DNA from: Siderastrea siderea | Taxonomy: Eukaryota; Cnidaria; Anthozoa; Scleractinia; Rhizangiidae | NCBI GenBank assembly: GCA_964030785.1 | Contig: OZ034968.1 | Location: forward strand, 51,157,230 to 51,221,229 | Length of the DNA stretch: 64,000 nt | Reading direction: 5' to 3' | Part shown: positions 14,140 to 64,000 of the stretch, piece by piece | Position numbering within the stretch: position 1 is the stretch's first letter | Layout of the letters: every line of letters begins with the position of its first letter | Made by a program: the position numbers and the translations under genes | Notes under the pieces: generated by a model | Databases searched by the model: none | Seen by the model: only the letters and a program-made list of their open reading frames with translations | What the model was told of the DNA's origin: nothing

Positions 14140-14199
14140 TTATTATTGCATTGAAACCCGATATGGCGGACGCTGTTTTTGCCTGGTGTTGAGAACGAT

Positions 14200-18100: not shown

Positions 18101-19425
18101 GTGTAGTTGAAATACGCGAGGTGACCACCCCTGATCAATGGAGACATTGTCCAGGACGAATGAATCCCGCTGATGACGCCTTACGCGGTCTGAAGCCTCA
18201 GAAATTGTCCAATCAGCATCGCTGGTGGAGAGGGCCAGAGTTTCTGTGGGAGCCAGAAGATCGTTGGCCAAATTCGGTGGTGGAAGAGGTTCCAGAAAAT
18301 GATCCAGAATTGCGAGCTTCAACAAATGTTCACCAAATCAGTGTCAAGCAGAATGATTGTGATGTTAACTCTACCATTAACACCGATAGTGATGATACAT
18401 TTCCGAATGAAGGGAGAGGACTAAAGGAACTTATTAAGAACTGCAGCTCATGGTCAACCTTACAGCGCCGTGTTGCATGGATAGTCCGATTTTGTCATTG
18501 GATCATGAGTAAGAGAGCTGCCCATGTCACTGGTTCATTGACTTTAGAGGAACTTAATCAGGCAACCCATGTTATTGTCTGCAGTGTCCAGAATGAATGC
18601 TTTACTGAAGACGTCAAAGAATTAAAGAAGAATAAAGAAGTCAAGAAATCAAGCAAGCTAGCCAACCTGAGACTAGTGTTACTAGATGGAACCTTGAGAG
18701 TGGGCAGTCGATTGCAGGAAGCGGCAGCACTGTCCCGGGATGAAAAACACCCAATGATTCTGCCGAAGGGCCATCATGTCAGCCAATTGCTTGTTTGCCA
18801 CTGTCACGAGAGTGCTGCTCATAGTGGAAGGGAGCAAACGTTATGTGAGCTGAGAAGAATGTTTTGGATCGTTGCTGGAAGACGTCTAGTAAAGGGAACG
18901 ATAAGGAATTGTGTGAAATGCCGAAGACTGAATGCCAAACTAGCAGAGCAGGTCATGGGACCCTTTCCCAGGGCAAGGTTAGAAGCGTACCACCCTCCAT
19001 TTACCTTCACAGGTGTTCACCTTTTCGGACCACTAACAATTAAGTGGGGCCGCGGAACTGCAAAGAGATGGGGATGTCTATTTACGTGCTTCACAGCTCG
19101 TGCTGTTCACCTTGAAGTGACTCCATCGCTTGAGGCAGATGATTTCATCATGATCCCTCGACAGTTTATCAGTAGAAAAGGACCCCCTAAAGAAATTTGG
19201 TCTGATCGAGGAACTAACTTTATTGGAACCAACAGAGAGTTGAAGGAATCCATTGCAGAGTGGAACGAAGAAAAGATGATTCAACTGGAAATTCGGGCTG
19301 TTCGTGTTTATCCCACGTGCACGGGATTGGTTCGACTTGTTCGTTCGATTTACTCCTTATGCTGTGTTATTAAACTTTTCCTTGCTGATGAAGCGATTGC
19401 TTACAGATACATTATTTGTAAATAA
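14983..19425 (+). pseudogene. BEL/Pao pol: protease, RT, RNase H, truncated integrase
   Basis: One frame throughout, broken by TAG at 17017-17019 inside the RT. Visible parts: zinc knuckles from 15619 (CYSCEATHKIEHC, CLNCVRRGHFAGEC, CKHCQHPHH); protease LLDTGSEETF at about 16024; RT with YVDD at 17275-17286; RNase H acidic residues in FSDASEDGYG, RLELQA and FWTDSQ; integrase HHCC zinc finger (about 18775-18925); integrase core with GVHLFGPL, where the first catalytic Asp is His (codon 19018-19020); and WSDRGTNF with the second Asp (19204-19206). The third catalytic Glu is absent because the coding sequence fuses to LTR-like DNA at 19278. The last 50 residues are therefore not integrase. No function is expected. 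Confidence 0.9.
19278..19357 (+). repeat. 80-bp direct repeat, 3' copy
   Basis: Matches 13343-13422. It is read in frame at the end of the integrase, which is coincidental. After 19357 the two copies diverge completely. Confidence 0.85.
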
Positions 19426-23589: not shown

Positions 23590-25109
23590 GAGATGCGCAG
23601 GACGTATGCGCAGTAACAAAAGGGGCACCGTCCATAAGGTACTAGAAAATCATCACATTTACTGACCAAATCTTTGGAATGTTGGACATCAGCGAACTTG
23701 TTCCTCAAGAAAGTGAAGTCGAACGTGATTAGAATAATAGCCATAGTGGCAGTGACGACGAACTGAGAGTGTAACATGCCCACACTTACGCGTAGCAGCA
23801 GGTGGGTTCGAGTGCCTGCAAACTGGCAAAGTGTCATGACTTTCTTTAAAAAGAACATCTTTGTTTACAGACTTAATTTGATCATGAAATATTTTAAAGG
23901 AAATTCTGTCTTTGCTGTATCCAGTGAGAACTGTGTGATTATAGATAAAAACTGAGAGTAAGAGTAAGGCAAGACATCAAAAGCCATACAATAGAGAAAC
24001 AAGAAGAGACGAGAGGAACTCATAAGGGATCATGAGGATATAATGTCGCTTGAGATAAGGAAAAGAGCCTGTTAGTTTGGCAAAATCACAAAGATAGCGT
24101 ACATCATTCATAGGTACCCTGTTACTACATGTTAAGTCTAGTAGTTTGTAGGTATTCAAAGAGCACAAAGTTCCTTAGTAAAGTGACAGTATTGGAAGGA
24201 ATTTAAGCTGCAGTGTAGTGTTATGTAATATAAACCCGTTAAAGCATAATCAGGGAGAAAGGTGAAAAAACAGGGAGGCGGGAGAAACGGCCAAAAAATT
24301 AGGGAGGAGGGAGAAAAATGAGTTTAAAAATAGGGAGAAAAGATATTTAACTGCCTGTTCCTCTCCCCTCTCTCCGCTTCTATAGAAGCTCGCTAGAACT
24401 TTAACAACACCGGATACTGCCATGTTGTTTTTTTGCTTTTGACTGATTTGACCTCGAGTTCCAACCTCGTCGAGCCCAGTTCGCCCGTGGCTCTGACCAA
24501 ATGAACGCTGGCTCTTGGTATGCTTTTGTTCTCCAGGTTTCCCCAAAATACTGATACGCATGGGTAGAAAAAAGATACTACTGCCCCTTTAAACTGCTCC
24601 TTTGAGCATAGGCTCAAAGTTAGGGCAGCATGGCGATTGAGCGATTTTATTAGCGATTTCAGCAGAGCAGATAAGTATTTACAATGCTAAAAGACTACGA
24701 TTTTTTTTACGGAAAACCTTCTAAACACTAAACAGTATTTTCTCCGCAAACAGTAAACATTAAAATATTGGCCAATTTAACAGCAAACACTACAAATTGT
24801 GGGCAATTAACACTAAACATTAAACCCCATTCAGACCCTCCTATGCATCCCAAAATCAGAACATGTTCTTTCCAACTTTACGTAACATTGATTATTTTAT
24901 TCTAACGTACCTGTAACACATAAACCTAGAATTTGGGCCAGTGAATCTTAGTTGAACAAAGATTGGAATAATGGGTCGTTTTTCCGTGATGGACTACTTA
25001 GTTCCCTGCTCTGTCGGGTGCCAGAAAGGTAGCGGGCGAAAGGGAGTTCGGGAGGACACTAAGAACGGTCATAGCTTGTTGATTCGATTATTCCTTATGC
25101 CTTTTTCAG
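23590..25109. other. Upstream region of receptor 2
   Basis: Should contain the first exon, or the end of the first intron, of the second receptor, but I found no convincing signal-peptide exon. One phase-compatible option is ATG 24971 to 25028 with a weak donor (AAAG|GTAGCG), giving a 19-residue leader that is not strongly hydrophobic. A purine-rich repeat (24245-24345) is the only other structure. Confidence 0.4.
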
Positions 25110-27739
25110 AGACCCAGAGTTATGAGCTGAATGGAGATATAATACTAGGAGGGCTCTTTCCAATTCACCGTAGAAGTAGACACACAGAGAATGCTTGTGG
25201 TAACATTGATCCTCAGCCAGGGTTCCAGTACTTAGCCGCCATGCTATTTGCTATTAAAGAAATCAATAACGACCCGAACCTTCTCCCGAACATAACACTC
25301 GGTGCAAAGATCTACGACACTTGCCGAAGTCAAACAATTGGCGCCGACCGTGCAAAAGACATTATTAAATACACTCTTGGTGACCACAAAGCCCCTCTAG
25401 CTGCAGTTATTGGTCCTCTTGTTAGCGACGTGTCCATAGCAGTGGCAAATCTACTGCGTGTTTTCAACATACCTCAAGTTAGCTATGGATCAACTAGTGC
25501 AGATTTAAGCAACAAAGAGATTTACAGCTACTTTTTTCGCACTGTTCCACCGGATTCTTTTCAAGCGCATGCTATGGTTGATGTTCTTAGAGAATACAAC
25601 TGGAATTACGTATTTACAGTCAACTCGTACGGCAATTATGGACAGAAAGGAATGGCTGAATTACAAAAGGCAGCAAAAGCAGCGGGGATCTGTGTTGCTA
25701 GCGCTGCCCAACTTCCAAGTCTCCCAAGAGATGAGGACTTTAAAAATGTTGTCAATGACTTCCTCAAAAGGAGAACAGAATCTTCAAGTTCTGTCAATAC
25801 CATTGTTGTGTTTACTACCCAGTCTGACTCAACAGATTTGCTCCGCGCAGCTAATGAGTCAGGGGTAACACAATTTACCTGGGTCGGGAGCAACGGTTGG
25901 AGCAATCGAATTGACGTAACCGAGGGAAAAGAGGAAGTTGCCGACGGCTCTCTAACTGTCAATCATCTTGAAGGAGAAGTCCCAAAATTCCACAAATACT
26001 TCCTGAATTTGAAACCTGCTGAAAACAAGCTCAATCCATGGTTTGAAGAGTTCTGGGAAGCAGTTATGGAATGTAATATTCCCGGAACAAAACAAAGCAC
26101 AGTACATGCGATGCGAACATGTGGAAGTGACGAAAAGTTACCCGAAGGGATAGAAATTGCGCCAGTGCGAGTGGTAATTAATGCAGTTTACGCTGTGGCA
26201 CATGCACTGCATAACATGCAAAACGTCTACTGTCCAGGGGTAGAAGGTGTCTGTCAAAACATGACCAGAGAGTTCCGAAGAGAGGAACTGATCAAATTCT
26301 TGAGAAACGTGACTTTTTCCGATTGCTCGTTAAATTTTACCATTCGCTTCAATCAGAACCAAGAAATGGACGGAGTTTATAACATTGAAAACTTTCACGA
26401 AGGAGAGGACGGTAAGTGGAAATACACCAGTGTAGGAAATTGGCAAGGGAAGTTGCTCGCCAATAATAAAATCCAAGGAAAGCTGACAATAAACAAGTCC
26501 CTGTTACAGTGGGGGAATTCCAAGCCACATCCCATTCTGTCTTTTTGCAGCCAGACTTGTAACGGCTCACAAATACGAAAGTCAAGACTCAGGGACCCCG
26601 AGTGTTGCTGGGACTGTCTAACCTGCGACGAGAACTACATTATCAAAAACCAAACCTGTCAATTATGTCCTCTTGGTCATTTTGCTAACAACAAGCTGCA
26701 GGTTTGCACAAGAATACCTCTCATGTATCCAAGATGGTCAAGTGCGCCCGCGATTACATTTACAGTCTTTGCTGCCCTGGGTATGCTAGGTTGGTTAGCG
26801 ACAGCGGCGTTATTCATCAGGCACAGAGGTCATCATTTTATCAAAGCAGCAGGGAGGGAGTTGAGCGCTATCGTATTTATCGGTATCATGCTTTGCTATA
26901 TAACACCGTTTACGTATCTCGGTAAACCCACTGACACGCTTTGTGGCGTCCGCCGTTTTTTCGGAAGTGTATGTTTAACGGTGTGCTACGCGCCCGTCCT
27001 AATGAAAACAATTCGTATATACCGTATCTTCAAAAGTGCACTGAGTTCAGTGACGCGCCCTTCACTTACTCGCCCCAGATCACAGGTCCTCATTTCAATA
27101 GGGCTCATAGCTGTACAGTTCTTAATGACCACATTGTGGAACACTTCTGATGTCCCCAAAGCCAATGAAGTGTACCCTTCTGAGGACGTTGCTATTTTAG
27201 AGTGTAAAGTGAACAACTATAACTTAGTGGTGAATATTTCCTATAATTCACTTCTAATGCTCCTCTGTACCATTTTCGCCTTCAAGACCAGACATTTTCC
27301 AAGGAATTTCAACGAGGCAAAGTACATTGGTATCAGCATGTATCTTACCTGTACCGCTTGGATAATCTTTATTCCAAGCTACCTTAATACGTCAAACCCT
27401 TTTTGGCGTGTTTTCATGAGCTGCGCGGTTTTTATTGCGATCGGTACAATCACTTTGCTTGGTTTGCTGGTTCCTAAAGTAATCATAGTCATCTTCACTA
27501 ATGGACAATACCCTGGTGTCAACGAAAATTACACTTCCACTGCAGGACAGGGCGACACAAGCAACAGAAGGCTGAGTTGCGCTAATGCAGGTTCACGGAT
27601 GCCAAGAAGTACCTCCCTTGACATGGATGCAGGGCGACAAAATAGGGAATCACCACCGTCACAATTTCTGACTACAAGGCCCACAGATGCAAGGGCCCCA
27701 TTCAACTTACCAAAAAGTCAGATGCCAGCCCTTCTATAA
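25110..27739 (+). CDS. mGluR-like class C GPCR, paralogue 2 (main exon, 5' exon unresolved)
   Basis: The frame is open from 24971, but homology begins at TQSYELNGDIILGG, directly after a good acceptor (CTTTTTCAG, 25101-25109), in the same phase 1 as receptor 1. I therefore take 25110 as the exon start and the upstream codons as intron read-through. The protein has the Venus-flytrap ligand domain, a cysteine-rich linker (CCWDCLTCDENY at about 26600), seven TM segments (about 26735-27500) and a tail of about 79 residues that is longer and more polar than in receptor 1. Ligand contacts by eye: Ser in SDVS, Thr in YGST, Asp in VPPD and Tyr in GNYGQKG are kept; the Asp of the GSDGW motif is Asn (GSNGW); the distal Arg is Tyr and the distal Lys is Thr. 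It is probably a plasma-membrane receptor for an amino acid or related ligand. Confidence 0.88.
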
Positions 27740-28595: not shown

Positions 28596-44478
<15,883 letters not shown>

Positions 44479-48398: not shown

Positions 48399-48620
48399 GT
48401 TTGCATAAAGAATGCTGTAACATCGCCATTTCCTTTTCCTGTATTATCCAGTAAATTTTAATCCTTATACACTACAAAAATCCAATCACCGCAGCTGGTA
48501 AACACTTCGCCACTTCTCTCCATTTTGAGGGGCACATGCAACACATGCAATATCGCGAAGTTCTCACAGATCCTCGCGCTAAAGGATTTCATGTGGTCAG
48601 CGGACGTACCAACCCCCGCC
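48399..48620 (-). promoter_or_regulatory. Candidate LETM1 5' end and promoter region
   Basis: 48429-48399 (-) could be a short first exon, ATGGCGATG... ending CAAAC|GTAAGT, an ideal donor. It leaves one base over, whereas exon a at 44478 needs two, so an intermediate exon would be required or the exon is not coding. The DNA to 48620 is more GC-rich, with CCAAT at about 48482, and ends at the target duplication of the giant element. Confidence 0.4.
48613..48620. repeat. Target-site duplication, left copy (CCCCCGCC)
   Basis: Eight bases identical to 61869-61876, directly outside the inverted ends of the giant element. Confidence 0.88.
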
Positions 48621-48699
48621 GGTAGGTACGTGATGTATGGGGAACTATATTGTCCCCAATATATTATTTAACTAACTTTACTTGAGTTCTATTACTTAT

Positions 48700-51600
48700 A
48701 CTATTCTACTTGCTTGGCTACCTTGATGTACTCTACTTGCTTGATGTACTCTATGTGCTCGATCTACTCTACGTGCTTGATGTACTCTACGTGCTTGATA
48801 TACTCTACTTGCTTGATGTACTTCACTTGCTTGATGTACTCTACTTGCTTGATGTACTCTACGTGCTCGATGTACTCTACTTGCTTGATATACTCTACGT
48901 ACTTGATATACTCTACGTGCTTGATGTACTCTACTTGCTTGATGTACTCTACTTGCTCGATGTACTCTACTTGCTTGATATACTCTACGTGCTTGATATA
49001 CTCTACTTGCTTGATGTACTTCACTTGCTTGATGCACTCTACGTGCTTGATGTACTCTATGTGCTCGATCTACTCTACGTGCTTGATATACTCTACGTGC
49101 TTGATGTACTCTATGTGCTTGTAATACTCTACATGCTTGATGTACTCTACTTGCTTGTTGCACTTTACTCGCTTAATGTACTCTACTTGCTTGATGTACT
49201 TCACTTGCTTGATGTACTCTACTTGCTTCATGTACTCTACGTGCTCGATGTACTCTACGTGCTTGATATACTCTACGTGCTTGATATACTCTACGTGCTT
49301 GATGTACTCTATGTGCTTGTAATACTCTACATGCTTGATGTACTCTACTTGCTTGTTGCACTTTACTCGCTTAATGTACTCTACTTGCTTGATGTACTTC
49401 ACTTGCTTGATGTACTCTACTTGCTTGATGTACTCTACTTGCTCGATCTACTCTACGTGCTTGATATACTCTACGTGCTTGATATACTCTACGTGCTTGA
49501 TATACTCTACGTGCTTGATGTACTCTATGTGCTCGATCTACTCTACGTGCTTGATATACTCTACGTGCTTGATGTACTCTATGTGCTTGTAATACTCTAC
49601 ATGCTTGATGTACTCTACTTGCTTGTTGCACTTTACTCGCTTAATGTACTCTACTTGCTTGATGTACTTCACTTGCTTGATGTACTCTACTTGCTTGATG
49701 TACTCTACTTGCTCGATCTACTCTACGTGCTTGATATACTCTACGTGCTTGATATACTCTACGTGCTTGATGTACTCTATGTGCTTGTAATACTCTACAT
49801 GCTTGATGTACTCTACTTGCTTGTTGCACTTTACTCGCTTTATGTACTCTACTTGCTTGATGTACTTCACTTGCTTGATGTACTCTACTTGCTTGATGTA
49901 CTCTACTTGCTCGATCTACTCTACGTGCTTGATATACTCTACGTGCTTGATATACTCTACGTGCTTGATATACTCTACTTGCTTGATGTACTCTACGTGC
50001 TCGATGTACTCTACTTGCTTGATATACTCTACGTACTTGATATACTCTACGTGCTTGATGTACTCTACTTGCTTGATGTACTCTACTTGCTCGATGTACT
50101 CTACTTGCTTGATATACTCTACGTGCTTGATATACTCTGCTTGCTTGATGTACTTCACTTGCTTGATGTACTCTACGTGCTTGATGTACTCTATGTGCTC
50201 GATCTACTCTACGTGCTTGATATACTCTACGTGCTTGATGTACTCTATGTGCTTGTAATACTCTACATGCTTGATGTACTCTACTTGCTTGTTGCACTTT
50301 ACTCGCTTAATGTACTCTACTTGCTTGATGTACTTCACTTGCTTGATGTACTCTACTTGCTTGATGTACTCTACGTGCTCGATGTACTCTACGTGCTTGA
50401 TATACTCTACGTGCTTGATATACTCTACGTGCTTGATGTACTCTATATGCTTGTAATACTCTACATGCTTGATGTACTCTACTTGCTTGTTGCACTTTAC
50501 TCGCTTAATGTACTCTACTTGCTTGATGTACTTCACTTGCTTGATGTACTCTACTTGCTTGATGTACTCTACTTGCTCGATCTACTCTACGTGCTTGATA
50601 TACTCTACGTGCTTGATATACTCTACGTGCTTGATGTACTCTATGTGCTCGATCTACTCTACGTGCTTGATATACTCTACGTGCTTGATGTACTCTATGT
50701 GCTTGTAATACTCTACATGCTTGATGTACTCTACTTGCTTGTTGCACTTTAGTCGCTTAATGTACTCTACTTGCTTGATGTACTTCACTTGCTTGATGTA
50801 CTCTACTTGCTTGATGTACTCTACTTGCTCGATCTACTCTACGTGCTTGATATACTCTACGTGCTTGATGTACTCTATGTGCTTGTAATACTCTACATGC
50901 TTGATGTACTCTACTTGCTTGTTGCACTTTACTCGCTTTATGTACTCTACTTGCTTGATGTACTTCACTTGCTTGATGTACTCTACTTGCTTGATGTACT
51001 CTACTTGCTCGATGTACTCTACGTGCTTGATATACTCTACGTGCTTGATATACTCTACGTGCTTGATATACTCTACTTGCTTGATGTACTCTACGTGCTC
51101 GATGTACTCTACTTGCTTGATATACTCTACGTGCTTGATATACTCTTAACGTGCTTGATGTACTCTACTTGCTTGATGTACTCTACTTGCTCGATGTACT
51201 CTCCTTGCTTGATATACTCTACGTGCTTGACATACTCTACTTGCTCGATGTACTCTACTTGCTCGATGTACTCTACTTGCTTGATGTACTCTACTTGCTT
51301 GATGTACTTTAATTGCTTGTTGACCTCTACTTACTTGATGTACTCTACTTGCTTGATGTACTCTACTTGCTTGATGTACTCTACGTGCTTGATATACTTT
51401 ACTTGCTTGATTTACTCTACTTGCTTGATGTACTCTACGTGCTTAATATACTCTACTAATGCTTAATGTACTCTACTTGCTTGATGTACTTCACTCGCTT
51501 GTAGTACTCTATGTGTTTGATGTTCTTTACTTGCTTGTAGTACTCTATGTGCTTGATGTACTTTACTTGCTTGATGTACTTTACTTGCTTGATGTACTCT

Positions 51601-52560
51601 ATGTGCTTGATATACTCTACTTGCTTGTTGCACTTTACTCGCTTAATGTACTTTACTTGCTTGATGTACTTCACTTGCTTGATGCACTCTACTTGCTTGT
51701 AGTACTCTATGCGTGCTTGATGTACTTTACTTGCTTGATGTACTTTTCTTGCTTGTAACACTCTACATGCTTGATGTACTACTCTAAGTGCTTGATGTAC
51801 TTTTATTGCTTGTAATGCTCTACATGCTTGATACTCTATGTGCTTGATGTACTCCACTTGCTTGATGTACTTCACTTGCTTGTAGTACTCTATGTGCTTG
51901 AGGTACTTCACTTGCTTGATATACTCTACTTGCTTGATGTAATTTATTTGCTAGTAGTACTCTATGTGCTTGATGTACTTTTCTTGCTTGTAGTACTCTA
52001 CTTGCTTGATGTACTTTACTTGCTTGATGTACTCTATGTGCTTGATGTACTCTACTTGCTTGTTGCACTTTACTCGCTTAATGTACTCTTCTTGCTTGAT
52101 GTACTTCACTTGCTTGATGTACTTTACTTGCTTGTAGTACTCTATGTGCTTGATGTACTTTACTTGCTTGTTGCACTTTACTCGCTTAATGCTACATGCT
52201 TGATATACTTTACTTGCTTGATATACTCTTCTTGCTTGATGCACTCTACTTGCTTGTAGTACTCTATGTGCTTGATGTACTTTTCTTGCTCGTAGCACTC
52301 TACATGCTTGATGTACTCTAGGTGCTTGATGTACTTTTCTTGCTTGTAACTCTACATGCTTGATACTCTATGTGTTTGATGTACTTCACTTGCTTGATGT
52401 ACTTCGCTTGTAGTACTCTATGTGCTTGATGTACTTCACTTGCTTGATATACTCTATTTGCTTGATGTACTTCACTTGCTTGATGTACTCTATGTGCTTG
52501 ATGTACTTTACTTGCTTGATGTACCTTGCGTGCTCGGAGTTTTTTACTTGCTTTGAGTAT
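48700..52560. repeat. Left 18-bp minisatellite array of the giant element
   Basis: About 210 copies of units such as TTGATGTACTCTACTTGC, with variants GATATACTCTACGTGC, CTCGATCTACTCTACGTG and TTCACTTGC. A marker variant TTGTAATACTCTACATGC begins at 49119, 49317, 49587, 49785, 50253, 50451, 50703 and 50883; all spacings are multiples of 18 (198, 270, 198, 468, 198, 252, 180), showing higher-order duplication of blocks. From about 51145 the phase is broken more often. Long ORFs in several frames are by-products. Confidence 0.95.
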
Positions 52561-53495
52561 CTGTACATGGTCATGAGGACTGCGACTCCGAAGCATTTTA
52601 TTTAGCAATTATGAAACACATCTGAGTAAAAGGAGGGCCACGAAATTGTATTAGCCTTGGCTTTAAGAAGTTTGGCTTGAACAAGTTTATTATCTGCCTC
52701 AATTGTTTGCAACTTCTTATAATACTATATATTATATGCTTCTCTGAATATCTCAGGAGAAAATTTTTTTCGAAAACAAGTAACATTTTTGGGGAAGTTG
52801 AGGATTTAGTAAACTAGAACAGCCCCACATTTTTGAAAGAAGTCTAATTTTCCTGTATTGCTCTGTCTGACCATTCATTAAAAGATTATGAGGGGTCAGA
52901 AAGGGACACTGGCGTTAACCAGAATATGTCACTTTCACAAAGATATTTATCAATTGGCCCTGAAACAGGTCTATTTTCCGAGACGTACGCCACCTAACAT
53001 TTTCTCTGGTTATGGAAATCATCATGGAAGTCATTTTTGTCGACAAAACTTAACGCAACCGCTTTCCTAACATTAAATAAAAATTGACCTCTATGCAGAC
53101 GTCTTGGCCAGGGGAACAGCGTTCTCAAAGGCAATATCTCTCTCCTTTTAAGTGTCTTTTTCTTTTCCTCATTTTCTCTTGTAATAACTGTCCTTGTTAG
53201 TTTTTTTTAGCATTCCCAATTTAAGTGTCCCCAATTAAACTGTTAAATACTAAATACATTTGACACTTTTAATTAAGATTTTATCTACAGGGGCGTAGCT
53301 AGCTTTCTGAAGAGCTGTAGGCCTGGCCGCCTCTAGTTGGGGGGGGGGGGGATTAACCTACCGATGAAGACCCTTAAAAGTGCAATTGCACAGCACCGAA
53401 ATTTTGACATTTTATTACAGAGAATGGGCCAACTTTCACTCGTTACTTAATATATAAACGCACTTGCCTTTAACGACACATACCTATCACTTGGC
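52561..53495. other. Interior of giant element, left flank
   Basis: No gene. G run at 53340-53352 following GGGGCGTAGCTAG, which looks like one end of a hAT-type repeat without a visible partner. Confidence 0.4.
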
Positions 53496-53499
53496 TTTT

Positions 53500-53845
53500 C
53501 CAGAAGTCTCCCGAGTTTCTACTTGCTTGCATGAGACTTAACCAATCTCGAAAGGTTTTTTGTGGTATGTATAATGCCTATTGCTTTCTATTTTATCTTG
53601 AAAGTGTTTTAGCCTGAATTGCTCTCTATTGCACATTTTAAAAATACGAGCGAGCTAAAAAAATTTGTACTATAAACAAACAAAAAAAAACTAAAAAAAT
53701 GGTGTAAAAAGTGTCATTTTGTGTAGTTTACAAACACAAACATTTCGGACATAGCCCTTCTTCAGTATGAAACCGTTCTCCATATGTGTACACCTGAGAG
53801 ATTGGTTAAGTCTCAGCAAGCAAGTAGAAACTCGGGAGACTTTTT
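53500..53845. repeat. 50-base inverted repeat beside Penelope-like fragment
   Basis: 53500-53550 and 53795-53843 are inverted copies (TCTCCCGAGTTTCTACTTGC and complement), about 250 bases apart. Penelope-like elements often carry inverted terminal segments, so this may mark an element junction. Confidence 0.75.
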
Positions 53846-54620
53846 TGTTGAAAAATGTGAAGAAATGACCACCTTCTTTGAAGACCGTGGCTATCCTTCC
53901 GATCTACTGCGCAATGATCGGGAAAGAGTGCATTCCATCTCAGGTCAGGAAGCACTCGAGAAACGTGTCAGGCACAGCGAAGAAAGGATCGCTCTGGTAC
54001 TCACCTACCATCCTCTAAGTTCACGCATTAAGCACATTTTGCTTAACAACTTTAACATCCTGATAAGTAACCCAACGACCGCAGCAATATTTCCAGCACC
54101 ACCTATTGTTGCATATCGACGCCATTGCAGCCTCAGAGATCTCCTAGTACATACCTCCGACCACTGTGTAACAGACGAACCAGGAACATTCGCGTGTGAA
54201 CACCCACGCTGCCGCACCTACCAGTACACCACGTCCGATGTACATGTACGCGGACCGAACTGCTCAACTACCATCCGCGAGCACTTCAACTGCAAATCGG
54301 AGAACATTGTTTACTGCATCTCGTGCCGTTGATGTCCAAGGCTGTACATTGGGGAAACCGAACGTTCTCTCCGCGAGCGATTCGGAGAACACCAACGAAG
54401 CGTTGAAAAGAACACACCCGGTTTCCCTGTCGCGGAACATTTTAACTCCCCCGGCCACACTCTATCAGACATTCATTTTAGAGGACTAAGAATGTGTTCT
54501 GGGTCCGGAGCGCGACGGAAGCAATTTGAAAAGGAAAACATTTTTAAGCTCGGTTCAATGGCACCACAGGGCTTGAACAATCCTCTGACCCTTAGGAATG
54601 GAGTGGTGTTTACCATATGA
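53800..54620 (+). pseudogene. Penelope-like element: RT C-terminus and GIY-YIG endonuclease
   Basis: The frame continues from the RT thumb region (LVLTYHPLSSRIKHILLNNF, IFPAPPIVAYRRHCSLRDLL) into a cysteine-rich linker (FACEHPRCRTYQYTT, YCISCR) and, after a TGA at 54330-54332, into LYIGETERSLRERFGEH...FPVAEHFNSPGHTLSD, the GIY-YIG type endonuclease. The order RT then GIY-YIG is that of Penelope-like retroelements. The stop and the missing RT core make this a dead 5'-truncated copy. The CCHH-type linker motif before YIG is typical of animal copies. Confidence 0.8.
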
Positions 54621-54627
54621 TAGAAAA

Positions 54628-55040
54628 TATCATTAAGACTCGCAGATAAGCGGCTGCACTCACAGATAAGCCGCACTCACAGATAAGCTGCACCCTGAGT
54701 TTGGCAACTCAAATTAATTTTGATAAAAACGTTTTTTGAAAGAAATTTAAAGTTTGATTGTTTAGAAGTCTTCGTCTTACAACCTATCAACTCACTTACA
54801 TTGAAACAGAAAATACTTCAAAGACTTAGTCACAATTTCAGCTATTTAATAGAAGAAACATCTTGATCACAAACTTTGACAACTGATTGATCTTTTTCTG
54901 GTATTTGTTGGTGAGTCTTTCTTGACTCACCACAAGCAAATCGTTTGTGGAACGTTTGTAGCTCAGATAAGGCGCACCCTCGATTTTGAGCAACGAATTT
55001 GGGAAAAAAGGTGCGGCCTATCTGTGAGTCTTCACGGTAT
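54628..55040. mobile_element. MITE with GACTCRCAGATARGC ends
   Basis: The left end (AAGACTCGCAGATAAGCGGC) and right end (GCGGCCTATCTGTGAGTCTT) are inverted. The motif ACTCACAGATAAGC repeats tandemly inside the left end. About 410 bp, immediately upstream of the CXC ORF. Confidence 0.6.
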
Positions 55041-55159
55041 TATGTTTCATTCATCTAAGACTATCTGTTGGTTTGAAAGCCTTTATATGGTTGCATTTTT
55101 TAAGGCGACATTAGGCGACTTAACGTGACTTAAGGCGACTTCAGTCCCCAGAGTAGTTC

Positions 55160-55912
55160 TTGATGACTTATTACCGATCTTTTCTTATGTCAGAATGTTC
55201 AAGTTCAGATGACCCTAGCGAAGAAGAAAACCACGATATGGAAACTCGCTGCTCTTGCGGAAAAAATAGGAGGCACACAGATGTGCCAGAAGCCTGTGTT
55301 TCTAATAGATGTCCCTGTTACAAGCTAGAGCGGCCGTGTTCTCGGAAATGCAGATGCTATAACTGCAAGAACAAGAACGACTCCAAACCAAATGGAATCA
55401 ATAACAAAATAACAAATAAGGGATGCAAATGTGGACTTGCAAAGAAAAACAAAGCTAGCGATGCAAGTAACAAATCCTGCCGAGACGGTGTCCGCAAGTC
55501 CAGGTGCCCATGTGTAGCGAGTGCAACAGGTTGCTCGGAACTCTGTAGATGTGTTAATTGCGGCAATATTTTTCAGGCTCGTGTTGCTACAGAATCAACA
55601 AGCAATCCAAGGAAACGACAAAGGCAGTTAGTTTCCCCTTACAAAAGGAAAACAGGAAGGAGCTTCATGTCAGCTGAAAATGTTCAAGTCGAATCTGGGC
55701 CGTGGAGAAACCTGGAAATGCTATGTTTAATGGTTTGCAGAGAGGTGTTGTTTGGTCATGGTGTCTGTGTAAATGCAAGAAATTTGCAAATGCTGTTTAA
55801 TTTTGTTGCCCAATCTGATAGTGTTAAGGATATGTCTTTACTTATAGATTACAAGTCTATAGCACAAGTCGCTGCAAAAATTGCGCACTTAGAAGCCAAC
55901 CATACGTTGTGA
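55160..55912 (+). CDS. CXC-domain (tesmin/TSO1-like) protein, possibly a 3' exon
   Basis: Two cysteine-rich modules: RCSCGKNRRH...RCPCYKLERPCSRKCRCYNC and GCKCGLAKKN...RCPCVASATGCSELCRCVNC, each with the CXC spacing that binds zinc and DNA in tesmin/TSO1 proteins. A basic stretch (NPRKRQRQ...PYKRKTGR) and a helical C-terminus follow. In-frame ATGs at 55163 and 55187 are possible starts. However, TTTTCTTATGTCAG at 55180-55193 is also a good acceptor, and a protein with a longer upstream part is plausible, since CXC modules often sit at the C-terminal end of large transposon-linked proteins. It lies inside the giant foldback element and may be its own DNA-binding protein. No stops interrupt it, so it may be recent or under selection. 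Confidence 0.7.
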   Translation: MMTYYRSFLMSECSSSDDPSEEENHDMETRCSCGKNRRHTDVPEACVSNRCPCYKLERPCSRKCRCYNCKNKNDSKPNGINNKITNKGCKCGLAKKNKASDASNKSCRDGVRKSRCPCVASATGCSELCRCVNCGNIFQARVATESTSNPRKRQRQLVSPYKRKTGRSFMSAENVQVESGPWRNLEMLCLMVCREVLFGHGVCVNARNLQMLFNFVAQSDSVKDMSLLIDYKSIAQVAAKIAHLEANHTL

Positions 55913-58068
55913 CTTCATATAAGGGACTCCTGGGTAAAACGACTTTTAAATATTTAATTGTACTTTTTAAATTTAGCTACCTTGGGTCTTTTCTTTTGCT
56001 GACAATGTAACAACGAGTTTCAGTGATGTCTTGTACAAAATTTTTAGCTCGTGACCGTCGTGGATATTGTGTTTTTAGTGGCAACACTTTCCTCAACGAC
56101 ACTTGAATGATGATTTTAGCTTGGAAAATTTCATTGTTTGAAAATTGTAAAAAGCTGTATCTTTTTATTTATTCATATATTTTATTCTTAATATTAGTAT
56201 AAGTATTTCAAATTCATAGGCTTTTTTATTTTATTAATGTTATTTTTATGAAACGTTCACCACTATTCGCAGACATACATGTCTTATTAAAGAGTAGTTT
56301 GTACTTTAAGTTCAGGTTGGCTTCGCATAATGTGGTGGACGTTTAGAAGTGTTGAATATAGTTCCAGTTTTTAGCATTCCTAGGTTACAGTTTCTTACTT
56401 TGTTTTGTTCCAGAGAGAAATGATCTAAAATAAATGAATTCAAGTGACGGAAAATGTGTGTGCTTAATCAGTTAGAGTAAAAGGTTTTGCGATAAGACAT
56501 TTGTTATACTCGTATTGCTTTCAAGAACATTACAGGCACAATATGCTGTGGAACTGATTGATCTTGTCACCAAGTATTTGCTAGAAAACTGTTTCACCAC
56601 CCTAACAACTACAAAGGACCCATGGATCAGCATAAGTGCGGTCTGCAATGCTCTCGGGTTGGGTTTATCACTGTCAATTTTTAACACCTATACTTTGTAA
56701 TAGAGGGCATGAAGTTTGATGTTTATTTTAGTTGTGTATTAAATATCTCCTTTGAATTCCCAACTTGGCGATAAAAAGGTATTCCAGTCTAATTTGTTGT
56801 TCTACCTCACAGTATACCTTGACCCACATAACATCTTATCTTATCTTATCTTAAACCACGGGTTAGGAAGTGCGGGCCTTGATAGACTGAAAAGTTGTCT
56901 TGTGAGGGTCATGGAAGGAGAGGAGGTACTCGAGCGAGTTTGCCTGCTTTTGAGATTGGACCAGAAGCAGTATCCAAAGCTTACATTTTTAAAGCAAACA
57001 CTAAATTGTCGATATCTCAAAAAGGCGGAGTTACAAATGGCTGAATTTTCAAGAACCTTCCCAGGCTAAAAAAGATCATTTACAGCGGATTTTTTTCTGT
57101 AGTATCAGATGTAGTATCAAAAACATGCAATTTCAATATATGTTCAACCAGAATAAACGCGAAACAAAAATACATCGCGCGTTCCAAACTTTGCTTAAGT
57201 ATTTCACTGTAGTCTGTTGACAGCGTTTAATATTGTCATACGTAATTGACAGGGTAAGAAAATGTATAAGCGCAGTTTAGTTTTACAGTTACAAACACTC
57301 ACTCCGTAATGGTCATTAATACGCTAAAATCTTATGAAAGTTCTAAACGTCCTTTCCTTCTTGTAAAAACACCGAACACTTTCATCATATACAGTTAACA
57401 CGCTCAGCACACATAGTTTACGTGCAAGTTTTTCACGTACTCGATAGCTTTGGCAGCTCCTGAGTCTGAGATAGCATGAGAACACTTGGTTACATGATCT
57501 ACTTCCCCCAAAATGAACATTTCTTGTTCAGTTGTTTTCATTCTCTCCGAGAAGCGAAAAGTCCTACAGACTTGAAACTGTGCACGCAGAATCAAGTGCG
57601 GTTTTACACCAATCTGCAACAACGATTTTTTGCCTAGAGCAGACAAAACTTTAATTTTGTTCGAACCCCGAAAACAAGCGAATGATCCTCCATTGTGCTA
57701 CATAAACAGAACAACAAGTTACGATTGTTCTTCAAAATCCGAGAGCAAAATTCCTCCATTTCAACGCTTTGCTTTAGTAAACATTGAGGCAATCTTCTCA
57801 GGCAACATCGTGACAGAGGCAAACTGCTTAGCGACAGCAGGAAAAACGTATGCGTTTGCAAGCTACGATACTGCTGGGATTGACAAAGTTTTCGCATTCT
57901 GATCGTTCTTGGTGGAAAAAGATATCTTCAACTTCCGGTTTGAATGGCCCCGTTATAAACGTGGCGCGCACGCTACGCGCCTCGTTGGCTATCTACCATC
58001 TCGTATCCAACGCGCGCTCAAGGAATAATTGTTAAGTATACCACGAGAAAGTGTTGTGTTACTATTTT
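55913..58068. other. Interior of giant element between CXC ORF and MITE cluster
   Basis: Short ORFs at 56515-56700 and 56752-57069 (+) have some helical, leucine-rich character but no family I recognise. They could be decayed coding exons of the element. AATAAA at 56429-56434 lies about 520 bases after the CXC stop. CTTAT repeats five times near 56835. Confidence 0.35.
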
Positions 58069-58210
58069 ATACCATGCCATAGAAAATACGCTTACTAAAT
58101 TTCGTCGAGAATAAAATCCCAGCGCACGATGGGAAGGTTAAGTTTAACCATCGAATATTCAACGGCTTTCCTGAATTCTGATAGGCTGTATTTTCTATGG
58201 CATGGTATAT
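58069..58210. mobile_element. Short hairpin MITE, ends TACCATGCCATAGAAAATAC
   Basis: Twenty-base perfect inverted ends with TA edges; about 140 bp. Nested in the giant element. Confidence 0.8.
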
Positions 58211-58228
58211 AGAGTAGTTTGTAATATA

Positions 58229-58984
58229 CAGTGCCGTAGCAGGGTTAAATTTATTGGGGGGGGTGGGGGGTGGGCACATCACTCGCACCTTGGGCGCGAG
58301 GTTCTTGGAGGGTCGGGGGGCATGCTAGTCTGGGAGATTTTCAATGATGGGGTCTCTAAAATAGCATTTCTAGCTTTCTGAAAAAGTTACCAGCAATTTT
58401 AAACTGACTACAATCATTGATCAGAAAGGTTGCTTTAACGCTGTACTGTTCTTATTGAACGGGTTTATTTAATTCGAAGTTCCTGCTGCCTGTAAGCCAA
58501 AATGCCTGAGATGTTACTTCTAAACCAGCCTATTCTTGACGGTTTTCATTCTTTTTTGGGCATGACTCGTGATCGTTTCTCACCAGATTTAATGGGTTTC
58601 TCACCCATTTAAAGCCATAGAATTTAAAGCTTAATCAAATCGAAATGAACATTGGATGTTTGCAAAAATTAAGGAGCAGGAAGAGCGTCGCCGCTAACCA
58701 GACGTAACGGTCATAATTATTGGCTCAGTTCACAAGGGTCAATCGCAAAAATCCAATCCACTTCTAGGTTTTGCTGCCAAAAGCTTTGTAGGAGTTGGAA
58801 AAGAAAATGTGCAAAACTTTTGCTGGAAAACGTTATACTAATAGCACTGGAAAACAAAATTGGGCTAACCGCAGTGTTAATTAGGCTGACCTAATCCAAC
58901 AGTATGCTAACATAGTTACTGTTCTACTCTTTTGTGTTAACCCATTTTTTGGGGGGGGGCGGGGCTCCCCATGCTACGGCACTA
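58229..58984. mobile_element. hAT-like element, ends CAGTGCCGTAGCA
   Basis: CAGTGCCGTAGCAGGG at the left, TGCTACGGCACTA at the right, and G-rich/C-rich blocks just inside. About 756 bp, no transposase. Flanking duplication not clear. Nested in the giant element. Confidence 0.6.
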
Positions 58985-59014
58985 TTATATCAAACACGAG
59001 AGAGAGAGAGAGAG

Positions 59015-59157
59015 TGTTTCATGTAGTATGTCAAAAAACAGGGCGAGTGCTTCATCACGGGTTCCCGTAGACCGAGTGCTTTTATGGTTTCGAGGTGTTT
59101 GGAACCCGTGATGAAGCACGAAGCCCGAGTTTTTGACATGTCTTCTCAAATGAAACA
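59015..59157. mobile_element. Hairpin MITE, about 143 bp
   Basis: The left arm (TGTTTCAT...GACAT...GCTTCATCACGGGTTCC) and right arm are inverted with a small number of indels, around a loop of about 35 bases. A short GA run precedes it. Confidence 0.75.
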
Positions 59158-59299
59158 ATAAGAAATTATGCAGTGACATGTTTTCTCAAATCAACAATGA
59201 TAAATTATGCAGTGTTACATTATTGCCCTCCACCGAACGAACACGTTTACATGCATAGTGAGTTGTTGTTGTGCAGTTGGCGTCCGACCATGAGTGAAG

Positions 59300-59500
59300 A
59301 AGGGGCGTAAGGTCGCGACGCTCTCAACAGGTATCGAAGAAATGGAAGTGTCGAGTCTAAATTGCAGGCTAAGCAAATTCGTTATGGAAGTGGCTAAGAA
59401 GACCGGTGAGAGATATCCTGCGAAGATTATTTACGGAATAGTTGTGGAAAATTGTTCGCGTCTCAGACCAAGCTTATCTTCGCACCAAGTGGAGGCTATT
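59300..59500 (+). pseudogene. Crypton/DUF3504-like N-terminal fragment
   Basis: The reading SSLNCRLSKFVMEVAKKTGE then RYPAKIIYGIVVENCSRLRP resembles the start of the domain found in Crypton recombinases and ZMYM/QRICH1 proteins (LNYWLSKFV-EV-K-G--YPP-TLY). It stops where a TGTATAGTGTAGTATAG repeat and the right array begin. Only about 60 residues are recognisable, no catalytic part remains. It may be a captured piece rather than the element's own gene. Confidence 0.5.
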
Positions 59501-59585
59501 GTTTATATGGCTGTATATAGTGTAGTATAGTGGTGTATAGTGTAGTATAATGGTTTATGTTGTGCTATAGCCGTGTATAGTGTAG
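59500..59585. repeat. GTATAGTGTAGTATA-type repeat at inner edge of right array
   Basis: Several copies of (G)TGTATAGTGTAGTATAGTGG, a unit distinct from the 18-bp array that starts next to it. Confidence 0.8.
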
Positions 59586-59589
59586 TACT

Positions 59590-61785
59590 CATACTCCAAT
59601 TAAGTAAAGTGCTACAAGCAAGCAAAGTACTACAAGTAAGTAAACGAAAAACTCCAAGTAAGTAAAGTACTCCAAGCAAGTCAAGTACTCCAAGCAAACA
59701 AAGTACTCCAAGCAAGTAAAGTACTCCAAGCAAGTAAAGTACTCTAAGCAAGTAAAGTACTCCAAGCAAGTAAAGTACTCTAAGCAAACAAAGTACTCCA
59801 AGTAAGTAAAGTACACTAAGCAAGCAAAGTACTACAAGTAAGCAAAGTACTCCAAGTACTCCAAGCAAGTAAAGTACTCTAAGCAAACAAAGTACTCCAA
59901 GTTAAAAGTAAAGTACTCCAAGTAAGTAAAGTACACTAAGCAAGCAAAGTACTACAAGTAAGCAAAGTACTCCAAGTACTCCAAGCAAGTAAAGTACTCT
60001 AAGCAAACAAAGTACTCCAAGTTAAAAGTAAAGTACTCCAAGTAAGTAAAGTACTCCAAGCAAACAAAGTACTCCAAGCAAGTACTCCAAGCAAGTCAAG
60101 TACTCCAGGCAAGTAAAGTACTCCAAGTAAGTTAAGTACTCTAAGCAACCAAAGTACTACAAGCAAGAAAAGTACTCCAAGTAAGTGAAGTACATCAAGC
60201 AAGTAGAGTACATTAAGCGAGTAAAGTGCAACAAGCAAGTACAGTACATCAAGCACATAGAGTACATCAAGCAAGTAAAGTACATCAAGCAAGTAGAGTA
60301 CTACAAGCAAGAAAAGTACATCAAGCACATAGAGTACTACAAGCAAGTAAAGTACATCAAGCAAGTAGAGTATATCACGCAAGTGAAGTACCTCAAGCAC
60401 ATAGAGTACTACAAGCAAGTGAAGTACATCAAGCAAGTGGAGTACATCAAGCACATAGAGTACTACAAGCAAGTAAAGTACATCAAGCAAGTGAAGTACA
60501 TCAAGCAAGAAGAGTACATTAAGCGAGTAAAGTGCAACAAGCAAGTAGAGTCCATCAAGCACATAGAGTACATCAAGCAAGTAAAGTACATCAAGCAAGT
60601 AGAGTACTACAAGCAAGAAAAGTACATCAAGCACATAGAGTACTACAAGTAAATAAAGTACATCAAGCAAGTAGAGTATATCAAGCAAGTGAAGTACCTC
60701 AAGCACATAGAGTACTACAAGCAAGTGAAGTACATCAAGCAAGTGGAGTACATCAAGCACATATAGTATCAAGCATGTAGAGTATTACAAGCAAGAAAAG
60801 TACATCAAGCACTTACAGTACATCAAGCATGTAGAGTGTTACAAGCAAGAAAAGTACATCAGGCAAGTAAAGTACATCAAGCACATAGAGTACTACTACA
60901 AGCAAGTAGAGTGCATCAAGCAAGTGAAGTACATCAAGCAAGTAAAGTATATTAAGCGAGTAAAGTGCAACAAGCAAGTAGAGTACATCAAGCACATAGA
61001 GTACATCAAGCAAGTAAAGTACATCAAGCAAGTAAAGTACACCAAGCACATAGAGTACTACAAGCAAGTAAAGAACGTCAAGCACATAGAATACTACAAG
61101 CAAGTAAAGTACATCAAGCAAGTGAAGTCCATCAAGCAAGTAGAGTACATTAAGCAAGTAGAGTACATCAAGCACGTAGAGTACATCAAGCGAGTGAAGT
61201 ACATCAAGCAAGTAGAGTACATTAAGCGTTAGTAGAGTATATTAAGCACGTAGAGTACATCAAGCAAGTAGAGTACATCAAGCAAGTAGAGTACATCAAG
61301 CAAGTAGAGTACATCGAGCAAGTAGAGTATATCAAGCACGTAGAGTACTACAAGCAAGTAGAGTATATCAAGCACGTAGAGTATATTAAGCACGTAGAGT
61401 ACATCAAGCAAGTAGAGTACATCAAGCAAGTAGAGTACATCAAGCACGTAGAGTACATCAAGCACGTAGAGTCTATCAAGCACGTAGAGAACATCAAGCA
61501 AGTAGAGTACATCAAGCACGTAGAGTATATCAAGCAAGTAGAGTACATCAAGCAAGTAGAGTACATCGAGCAAGTAAAGTATATCAAGCACGTAGAGTAT
61601 ATCAAGCACGTAGAGTATATCAAGCAAGTAGAGTACATCAAGCACGTAGAGTATATCAAGCACGTAGAGTATATCAAGCACGTAGAGTATATCAAGCGCG
61701 TAGAGTACATCAAGCACGTAGAGTAGATCGAGCAAGTAGAGTACATCAAGCAAGTAGAGTACATCAAGGTAGCCAAGCAAGTAGA
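59590..61785. repeat. Right 18-bp minisatellite array (inverted relative to left)
   Basis: About 120 units. The inner part (59590-60190) uses CAAGTAAAGTACTCCAAG; the outer part uses TACATCAAGCAAGTAGAG, the complement of the left units. Shorter than the left array, with different block order, so the two arms have evolved separately by unequal exchange. Confidence 0.95.
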
Positions 61786-61868
61786 ATAGTATAAGAATAG
61801 AACTCAAGTAAAGTTAGTTAAATAATATATTGGGGACAATATAGTTCCCCATACATCACGTACCTACC

Positions 61869-61876
61869 CCCCCGCC
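61869..61876. repeat. Target-site duplication, right copy (CCCCCGCC)
   Basis: Identical to 48613-48620. Confidence 0.88.
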
Positions 61877-62003
61877 GCCTGCAGGAGACTCTGGGAAAGA
61901 CAACTGTCGGGAAGGACTGGGAAGTTTGCCACTGCTTCTCTCTGTCACACCTCTTCCGGCAGTATTTGTGAATCAGGGAGAAAGAGTGCTGATAAGGAAG
62001 AAA
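61877..62003 (+). promoter_or_regulatory. WDR1 5' UTR and proximal promoter
   Basis: 127 bases between the end of the giant element and the WDR1 start codon. Any further upstream promoter DNA now lies beyond 48620. Confidence 0.5.
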
Positions 62004-62359
62004 ATGTCTTTCGAGAAAGGTTTGTTACTTCTTAAGAGAGCTAAGTTACCATCTGCTTTAATTTTAAGCTTGAGACTTGTGCAGTAGATTGAATTTAGTT
62101 TAAAAATAACCTAGGTATAACCCTTTGGAAGGAGTCCACATGAATGTTTAAGGCTTCTCTCTACCTAATTTCGGCATGCTAATTTCACGTAAACTTCATC
62201 TAAACCTAAGTTTAATTTGGCTTGTTTATATTTCTAGGGCGTATCTTTTCTACTTTGCCGAGGACTGTGAGAGGAGTTCCAACTGTCCTCAAGGGTGATC
62301 CCAAGGGGAAAAATTTTTTGTACACAAACGGTACAAGCGTAATAATTCGTGACATTGAG
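62004..62359 (+). CDS. WDR1: WDR1/AIP1 5' exons (gene continues off the right edge)
   Basis: Exon 1 62004..62019 (MSFEK plus one base, donor AAAG|GTTTGT) joins exon 2 62238..62359 (acceptor TTTCTAG, donor GAG|GTGAGC), frame kept. The product begins MSFEKGRIFSTLPRTVRGVP and contains GDPKGKNFLYTNGTSVIIRD, the first WD-repeat blade of actin-interacting protein 1, close to vertebrate WDR1 at the same position. AIP1 is a 14-blade double propeller that works with cofilin in disassembling actin filaments in the cytoplasm. Only about 46 residues lie in the window. Confidence 0.92.
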
Positions 62360-64000
62360 GTGAGCTGGGTCTTTATCTTTTTCTACTGTTTAGTTGGTCA
62401 ACATTGAGCTCGAGCTTGATGTAACTGCAGCTGGAATTCTACACAGTATATCATGTTGTCGCGTATGTAGCTGATCTGAGTAACTTTTGCTGCTGTTATA
62501 GTCGGTTTTGGACCGAAATGAAGCTGCGGATACTAGGAAAATCTCAGTGATCAAAATGGCGTATTAAACGAAAGCTGAATTTTATGTTGTAACTTGAACG
62601 TATATTTAAAGTGCATAAACAAGCTCAGGTTTTTTTAAATTTCTCTGTTTTTAACCAAGAAAATACGTGAACTGGGAAACGTTTAAGTTATGTGAACTCT
62701 TGTGGTGAAGCAGCCATAATCTTTCTTAGCAAACTTTACCATATATGGAAATCTTATTACAAGACATCCCTGTTGAAATATTGCCTGTTAAGGAACTAAA
62801 AAAGTTATCATTTGTATACTTGGACAGTTTCTGTCATGTCATGGCAAGCTGAAGTATCACAACGCCAATACTCTATTTATGCTTATCACTGTATAAATAA
62901 TAATAGGCAAGAAGCAACCTAGTCATTGTTTTGTTAACTGAAGGTGTAATCTTGAGCATTTGCATTTTAATAGCACTTAATTACGTCTGAAGGAGGTGGG
63001 GTTGCAAGGAAGAAGGAGAAGATGTATTTTGTCCCAGAGAGAAAAGTTAAAAAATACACTGTAGAATTGCATATAGATATAACCAGGCTAGCCTAATAGC
63101 AGAGCCACTTAAGGAGGCTCGCAACAGTTTTTTTGGCCTTGGAGTGTATCTTTTGAAGTTAAAATTTCGCATAGAAGATAAACTTCGATTTCCTTGATAC
63201 CATACCACCTTTTCAAATTATGAAAAATATTCTGAGCTTTGTTTCTCGTTTTTTCGGCCCCAGTCTAATGCCATTGTGGACGTTAACATGTATGCAATCC
63301 GTAATTAAAAATGCTAAAACGTCACTCAGTATTTAAAGAATAATGGCAAAGAGTCTCCAGGAAGAAGCTCAGAAGATGAAAATTTTTTATTATTATGAGA
63401 AGGAATTATAGATGCACGAGAGGACACAAGCGCAGCGTGTATAAATATTCATTGCATGCGAATAAGCATGAAATAGACCAGGAAAAACAAAATAAAACTG
63501 TTGCTCATTGAAAATTAATAACGACTGAAACCTGACCGAGATTCAGCCTTCTTATCTAATAAACAAAATGGTTGTTCACCTTACTTGCTGGAACATCAAA
63601 AAGAATTATTATTCTAACAGCAATCAATTTAAGAGAAAAATCTGTAAGGGCAGTTTCGAAATATAATTTTCTATTTATACAAATTACAACCTTTTTGACT
63701 GATTTGTGCTGCATTTTAGCAGTTTTTAAATATAAATATCTTAAAATCGCAGCCACCTAGGAAGCTCAATGTACATTTAGAATGTTTTGCTGTCATAATA
63801 GATCTTTCAACTGAAAAGGGAAAGTGTTAAGTTTTATCTTTCTTGAAATATTGGAGAAAATTGCAGGAATGACCAAAATCAGCCCATAAAAAATGAATCA
63901 TGATTTACTTGAAAACGCTCTTACAGATTTTTCCCAAATTTCGCATACAAGTTGTGTTGATTGAGTAGTTCAAAATAGTTCAAGTTTCGTCATAAAGTGT
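62360..64000. other. WDR1 intron 2 (partial)
   Basis: No further WD-repeat exon is seen. Short ORFs near 63556-63760 are frame shadows. Confidence 0.5.

Follow-up and report, generated by a model that had tools for sequence, protein, structure and literature searches.

We report that a young family of non-autonomous foldback elements, very probably cut-and-paste DNA transposons, is present in the genome of Siderastrea siderea (Cnidaria; Scleractinia). One of its copies, named W here, lies in the window, the whole 64,000-nucleotide stretch analysed (GenBank assembly GCA_964030785.1, contig OZ034968.1, positions 51,157,230 to 51,221,229, forward strand). Window positions 48613-61876 are one transposon insertion, in which an element proper of 13,248 bp (48621-61868) is enclosed by two exact copies of the octamer CCCCCGCC. 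The family has defined ends and mostly 8- or 9-bp target-site duplications at many unrelated sites, and the 18-bp arrays of its arms, its middle and its passengers travel together with the element.

Results

Ends of the window copy

On the plus strand of the 64 kb CCCCCGCC is found at 48613 and 61869 only, both times touching an end of the element, and its reverse complement occurs once; the expectation from base composition is 0.16 per strand. Two random places had an exact 8-mer in common in 171 of 2,000,000 draws. The outer 102 bp of the two ends are 99% identical in inverted orientation with one 1-bp gap, whereas the 200 bp beyond the ends show an inverted identity of only 27.5%, hence the inversion ends at the element borders. 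The ends are defined and start with GGTAGGTACG, the terminal bases being GG, and the end motif of the family is GGTAGGTACGTGATGTATGG. About 76 bp of each end is non-satellite sequence with sharp borders. The 13.25-kb foldback element with intact ends and exact 8-bp duplication, which the original prediction had drawn from the window alone, is thus found with the predicted coordinates and sizes. An Rfam scan gave no match at the gathering score, and searches of viral_contigs with patterns of the terminal inverted repeat (TIR) and of the 18-bp unit gave none either.

Copies in the assembly

A genome search with the element end had been proposed as a check, and the first 100 bp were used as the query against the species' own assembly (830.9 Mb, 402 contigs). 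At least 41 matches were obtained, six at 100% and the other 35 at 93-99% identity; the number is a lower bound, because 40 of 66 candidates were scored. Thirty of the matches form 15 left/right pairs, defined by opposite orientation and nearness, which span 9.7-35 kb; one is a partial match inside copy P4, and ten single ends are left uncounted. Ten pairs were taken whole and four by their ends alone, which makes 15 together with W.

Exact direct repeats flank all 15 pairs, with a length of 8 bp in ten, 9 bp in four and 7 bp in one (P12), and all of them differ. Every pair begins and finishes at the same bases, the left end of P4 having one altered base near the tip. In the control, where left flanks were compared with right flanks of other copies, none of 182 comparisons gave a match of 7-10 bp (14 copies, without P4). 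The 22 ends of 11 copies all agree at 40 of their first 46 positions. The exact 7-9-bp duplications at each pair agree with the claim of a single insertion rather than two unrelated satellites, and the ends found by the search bound whole copies instead of being mere satellite edges.

Two single ends on C13 (31658201 and 31691358), 33 kb apart, have the same 20-bp outer flank. With the flank identical, they look like a local duplication or an assembly duplicate.

Arms

Inverted arms with tandem repeats surround a middle in all 11 whole copies, and the arm lengths range from 1.85 to 5.4 kb. In W the unit-like sequence reaches about 52534 in the left arm and begins at about 59617 in the right one, the left arm being about 1.7 kb longer. 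Of the window's 44 occurrences of one consensus 18-mer, none lies outside the element. The two arms are homologous in order, beyond sharing the unit. The right arm aligns to the inner left arm at 87%, the other 24 listed alignments giving 78-81%, and the best score in a register scan of 131 offsets is 2347 against a median of 1850. The 198-bp higher-order repeat of the outer left arm (Table 1) was not seen in the right arm. In P11 the array of the left arm is split by an unrelated 4.3-kb segment at element positions of about 2221-6570.

Middles and array change

The middles were compared in the 11 whole copies (W and ten pairs) and in parts of P4, P7 and P13. Those of W, P1 and P2, 7.08 kb long, show identities of 99.61-99.76% and lie at sites with different duplications, and those of P5 and P9 are 99.71% identical. 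Since near-identical middles occur at different insertion sites, the family moved recently. Recent activity had been predicted from the near-identity of the two ends; the conclusion stands with the copies at other sites, but near-identical ends alone are weak evidence for it. The remaining copies have the common middle with differing internal deletions, and P12 and P14 are older, with identities of about 95-96% to other copies.

Eight comparisons of arms between near-identical copies gave 59 gaps, of which 42 are multiples of 18, as are 42 of the 50 gaps of at least 18 bp; these comparisons are not independent, as members recur in three of the four copy pairs, and gap placement matters. The left arm of P1 is 1.5 kb longer than that of W, and its right arm is 55 bp longer. 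Hence, judging by the gaps between near-identical copies, the arrays gain and lose mostly whole units, at a faster pace than mutations accumulate in the middle, and each arm does so on its own.

Coding content and passengers

We scanned 91 stop-free frames of at least 38 amino acids from the W middle with Pfam-A (E <= 0.01, no filter) and 97 further frames, namely 79 from the P6 middle (at least 45 amino acids) and 18 from the extra segment of P11 (at least 60 amino acids), low-complexity frames having been removed from this second set. No transposase domain was found at E <= 0.01 in the 91 or in the 97 frames, so the element is read as non-autonomous; the search of relatives for a transposase that had been suggested thus yielded no domain in the frames of the P6 middle and the P11 segment. 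The W middle gave MSL2-CXC and TCR (both in the CXC frame), QRICH1 (one frame) and IGFL (E 0.0093). At E <= 1 weak matches to GIY-YIG, FERM_N and Meiotic_rec114 were added, all below cut-off. The P6 and P11 frames gave QRICH1, DUF3915 and PID, the last two weak.

The CXC frame is longer than the longest frame in 300 resamples (220 amino acids). It is identical in W, P1 and P2 and stop-free in these and in P13, and its segment is absent from 8 of the 11 whole copies. Between W and P13 there are 2 synonymous and 7 non-synonymous changes (P = 0.58), so that no constraint is visible. We therefore reject the frame as a transposase, considering its matches to MSL2-CXC and TCR and the W-P13 substitutions, and read it as a passenger. 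The zinc-binding CXC cargo of the original prediction is thus present as a frame, but in part of the copies only, and nothing in it points to selection or to a transposase role. In the genome the frame has 62 matches: 7 near-identical places, 2 fragments adjoining two of these places, and 53 at 25-51% identity. The apparent 1990-residue frame in one relative is a run of N and no evidence for a long gene. A single-sequence structure model had a mean predicted local distance difference test score of 34.8 and was not used. A limited literature search for CXC with MSL2, transposase or cnidarian found nothing matching.

The fragment at the 5' part of the middle, which we take to be Penelope-like and which has a sub-cut-off GIY-YIG match, is present at least partly in all 11 whole copies and is missing from P13. 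A 46-bp inverted piece lies at its 5' end (53504-53842). The CXC and QRICH1-like pieces lie inside the TIRs and might be captured host-gene pieces of the kind that marks Pack-MULE or Pack-TIR elements, but a single middle is common to the copies, in place of a separate capture in each.

Three large copies were considered as autonomous and rejected. In P7 (22 kb) a CACTA-like gene sits between two parts of the left array (L030:405-3675, L032), which is thus interrupted; its matches to DUF4218 (E 0.00097) and Transposase_21 (E 0.018) are both below cut-off. In P4 (35 kb) a DNA_pol_B_2 frame (E 2.3e-45), and in P13 (29 kb) putative Polinton/Maverick-like genes, judged from reading frames, stand beside the transposon's own middle. 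The putative virus-like genes of Polinton/Maverick type begin at about 3443 of L033 in P4 and at about 5271 of L048/L049 in P13.

Insertion site and neighbouring features

The element probably occupies the 5' region of a WDR1/AIP1 gene, as suggested by the protein match within the frame 62216-62404. Its right end is 135 bp from the start codon at 62004, given the inferred splice pair. The flank 61877-62160 occurs once in the assembly. W at WDR1/AIP1 is one site and no test of insertion preference.

Elsewhere in the window there are two long single-frame coding stretches of family-C G-protein-coupled receptors (ANF_receptor and 7tm_3; 2380-4974 and 24956-27736), a BEL/Pao-type retrotransposon (14155-19425) with Peptidase_A17, DUF1759 and an integrase zinc-binding domain, and a perfect (ATGA)n tract (32968-33408; 110 copies, 100% matches).

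Table 1. Features of the W copy and of the adjoining gene, in window coordinates
Feature	Position	Strand	Remarks
Left 8-bp target-site duplication, CCCCCGCC	48613..48620		exact copy of the right one
Left outer TIR, first bases GGTAGGTACGTGATG	48621..48722	+	positions 16-41 form an imperfect palindrome (10/13 pairs)
Left arm, array of the 18-bp unit CTTGATGTACTCTACTTG	48722..52524	+	Tandem Repeats Finder: 211.6 copies, 82% matches
Higher-order repeat of ~198 bp (11 units)	48771..50871	+	outer ~2.1 kb of the left arm
Middle (interior)	52535..59616		7.08 kb; 99.6% identical in P1 and P2
Presumed Penelope-like fragment, 5'-truncated	53504..54617	+	weak GIY-YIG match, E 0.015, below cut-off
CXC segment	54582..55967		1.39 kb; in W, P1, P2 and P13; P6 has a 2.95-kb segment instead
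CXC frame	55157..55909	+	251 amino acids, stop-free, ATG 55187, two CXC clusters; MSL2-CXC E 1.2e-7; TCR E 0.0059 (below cut-off)
QRICH1-like fragment	59294..59527	+	E 9.1e-6, below curated cut-off
Right arm, inverted array of the 18-bp unit	59655..61768	-	Tandem Repeats Finder: 118.2 copies, 78% matches
Right outer TIR	61768..61868	-	inverted match to the left end
Right 8-bp target-site duplication, CCCCCGCC	61869..61876		exact copy of the left one
Probable first coding exon (ATG) of WDR1/AIP1 gene	62004..62019	+	border inferred from splice signals and frame
Second exon of WDR1/AIP1 gene	62238..62359	+	borders inferred; phmmer WDR1 (9qfq) E 7e-10, AIP1 (1nr0) E 0.0012

Discussion

Proposed mechanism

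Step 1: A transposase made elsewhere would act in trans and bind the inverted ends of the element, and probably also the repeated sites in the arrays. The arrays may thus serve as extra binding sites for the transposase, by analogy with the repeats of Galileo, for which such additional sites were proposed (PMC3573991; the papers cited here and below are drawn on in excerpt).

Step 2: The enzyme would cut at the terminal GG and insert the element into a staggered cut of 8-9 bp.

Step 3: Slippage or unequal exchange would lengthen and shorten the arrays, mostly by whole units and in each arm independently of the other.

Relation to known foldback elements

Inverted arms composed of short direct repeats are familiar from the Drosophila FB and the sea-urchin TU elements, and TU elements have 15-bp units and 8-bp duplications. 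Considering the mixed 8- and 9-bp duplications, the long ends, the subterminal tandem repeats and the lack of a clear target motif, Muta1 of Aedes aegypti, a 'type2 Foldback' element of the Mutator superfamily, is the best match. It has 8- or 9-bp duplications with no apparent target sequence, TIRs made of a short end motif and short tandem repeats (12 bp there, 18 bp here), and a repeat number that varies among its non-autonomous derivatives (PMC5225508). However, it encodes a transposase and its TIR, with 9 repeats, is 145 bp long, whereas here no transposase was found and the arms are 1.85-5.4 kb; likewise, its derivatives have varied middles, unlike the one common middle with deletions seen here. 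Muta1 insertions lie in genes or within 5 kb of them in 110 of 171 cases, against 49 of 171 in the control (PMC5225508).

Tm1 of root-knot nematodes (Mutator/Foldback) also has composite TIRs with a variable number of about 14-bp repeats, duplications mostly of 8-10 bp (45 of 53) and non-autonomous copies with other genes inside, but its 7-bp end motifs are asymmetric and 9 bp is its commonest duplication, whereas here the ends are symmetric with GG and 8 bp is commonest (PMC3169594). Tetris of Drosophila virilis, a source of satellite DNA, is likewise a non-autonomous foldback with tandem-repeat TIRs and 8-10-bp duplications for which, in the excerpt, no transposase was found; its unit is however about 220 bp and its TIRs reach 1,735 bp (PMC4079207). 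The Mutator-like Rehavkus has a minisatellite near an end, but only before the 3' TIR, and differs in its 9-bp duplications and in the PHD finger of its transposase (PMC6446971). Galileo, of the P superfamily, shares the long, internally repetitive TIRs and differs in mostly 7-bp duplications, in repeats of about 140-210 bp and in having a P-type transposase in the family (PMC3573991, PMC4168063). The arms of W, 3.9 and 2.2 kb, had been called extreme. They are long but not unmatched, since in the longest Galileo copy the TIRs measure 4,246 and 4,680 bp and a transposase segment is absent (PMC4168063); multi-kilobase tandem-repeat arms are thus at the long end of a range with a precedent. A limited literature search for foldback elements in corals and cnidarians found nothing matching.

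The mobilising enzyme

We consider a Mutator (MULE, Mutator-like element) type of enzyme the leading candidate, with chances of about one half. Duplications in the Mutator superfamily are 8-11 bp (PMC6446971), and 14 of the 15 copies have 8 or 9 bp, P12 having 7 bp. The family is not filed under Mutator, because no transposase was found.

Several points weigh against the reading as a Mutator-moved foldback family. Neither an autonomous copy nor a transposase was found among the middles read, to which that of P10 (34 kb), a copy that could be autonomous, does not belong, and the enzyme type is therefore unproven; small exons could also be missed, because frames below 38-60 amino acids lay outside the scan. 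MULEs are rare in the 100 animal genomes of one survey, with a median of 0 (PMC8277862). Ten of the 41 end matches are single ends, the duplication of P12 falls to 7 bp, and neither an empty site nor an empty allele was observed. As for a binding role of the array, the inner end resembles the 18-bp unit no more closely than does the best of 300 shuffles. Finally, array gaps of 1, 2, 14 and 304 bp occur too, and in the left arm of the W/P1 comparison only 9 of 18 gaps are multiples of 18.

Another source of the enzyme would be the KDZ/Zisupton group or some other, possibly undescribed family, with the CXC protein as a remnant of its gene set. The frame is stop-free in four copies, and its 62 genome matches, 53 of them distant, would suit such an origin; KDZ transposases are reported with cysteine-cluster modules. 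However, the frame matches MSL2-CXC and not a KDZ-associated family, no KDZ domain was found in the scanned frames (W middle, P6 and P11), and the CXC frame gives no sign of purifying selection (2 versus 7 changes) and is missing with its segment from most whole copies. We regard this origin as unlikely.

Somewhat less likely still is a Merlin (IS1016-like) transposase, in which case the arms would be a foldback built on Merlin ends. Merlin elements have terminal 5'-GG, 8- or 9-bp duplications and TIRs of 24-462 bp (PMC8101967), and the GG ends of the present family, its mostly 8- or 9-bp duplications and its ends of about 102 bp plus arrays fit this, which adds to the points against a Mutator enzyme. 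On the other side, Merlin with long arrays in the arms is not described in the excerpt of that source (PMC8101967), whereas accounts of Mutator families do mention subterminal tandem repeats, and no Merlin domain (DDE_Tnp_IS1595) was found in frames of the W middle, P6 and P11, the genome itself not having been searched for it.

The hAT and P superfamilies are disfavoured, because 9-bp duplications occur. The hAT elements make a constant 8-bp duplication with a preference for nTnnnnAn, which fits 1 of the 10 eight-mers here, and 4 of the 15 copies have 9 bp. The same four copies speak against the P superfamily, where the duplication of Galileo is 7 or 8 bp (PMC4168063).

That the copies arose by segmental duplication or assembly error instead of transposition is highly improbable: the two C13 single ends with their shared 20-bp flank do look like a local duplication, but the 15 pairs have 15 different duplications, the flank mismatch control gave none in 182, and the flank 61877-62160 is single in the assembly. 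A pair of satellite arrays without relation to each other, or a single palindromic rearrangement, matching in 8 bp by chance, has a negligible probability. Inverted satellites can form without transposition and the arrays are long and variable, but the ends carry about 76 bp of non-satellite sequence with sharp borders, the 8-mer occurs twice on the plus strand of 64 kb, and 14 other sites show this architecture with duplications of their own, which refutes both chance satellites and a single palindrome.

Significance

Satellite DNA and inversions are both suspected to arise from foldback elements, and a single assembly here supplies 15 copies whose ends and duplications match up. Although the middles of some copies differ by just 0.24-0.39%, their arrays have already diverged, mostly by whole 18-bp steps and in one left arm by about 1.5 kb. 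These copies provide a natural clock by which the growth of arrays can be timed against point mutation. The copy in front of WDR1 can serve at once as a marker for tests of the empty site and of expression.

Last, it is conceivable, to about the same low degree as the Merlin origin, that the foldback family is moved by an undescribed or unassigned transposase and that its arrays are amplified as a part or a result of transposition. If this were true, the family would sow ready-made kilobase minisatellites, one of them at least into a gene promoter, and would be a live source of new satellite DNA.

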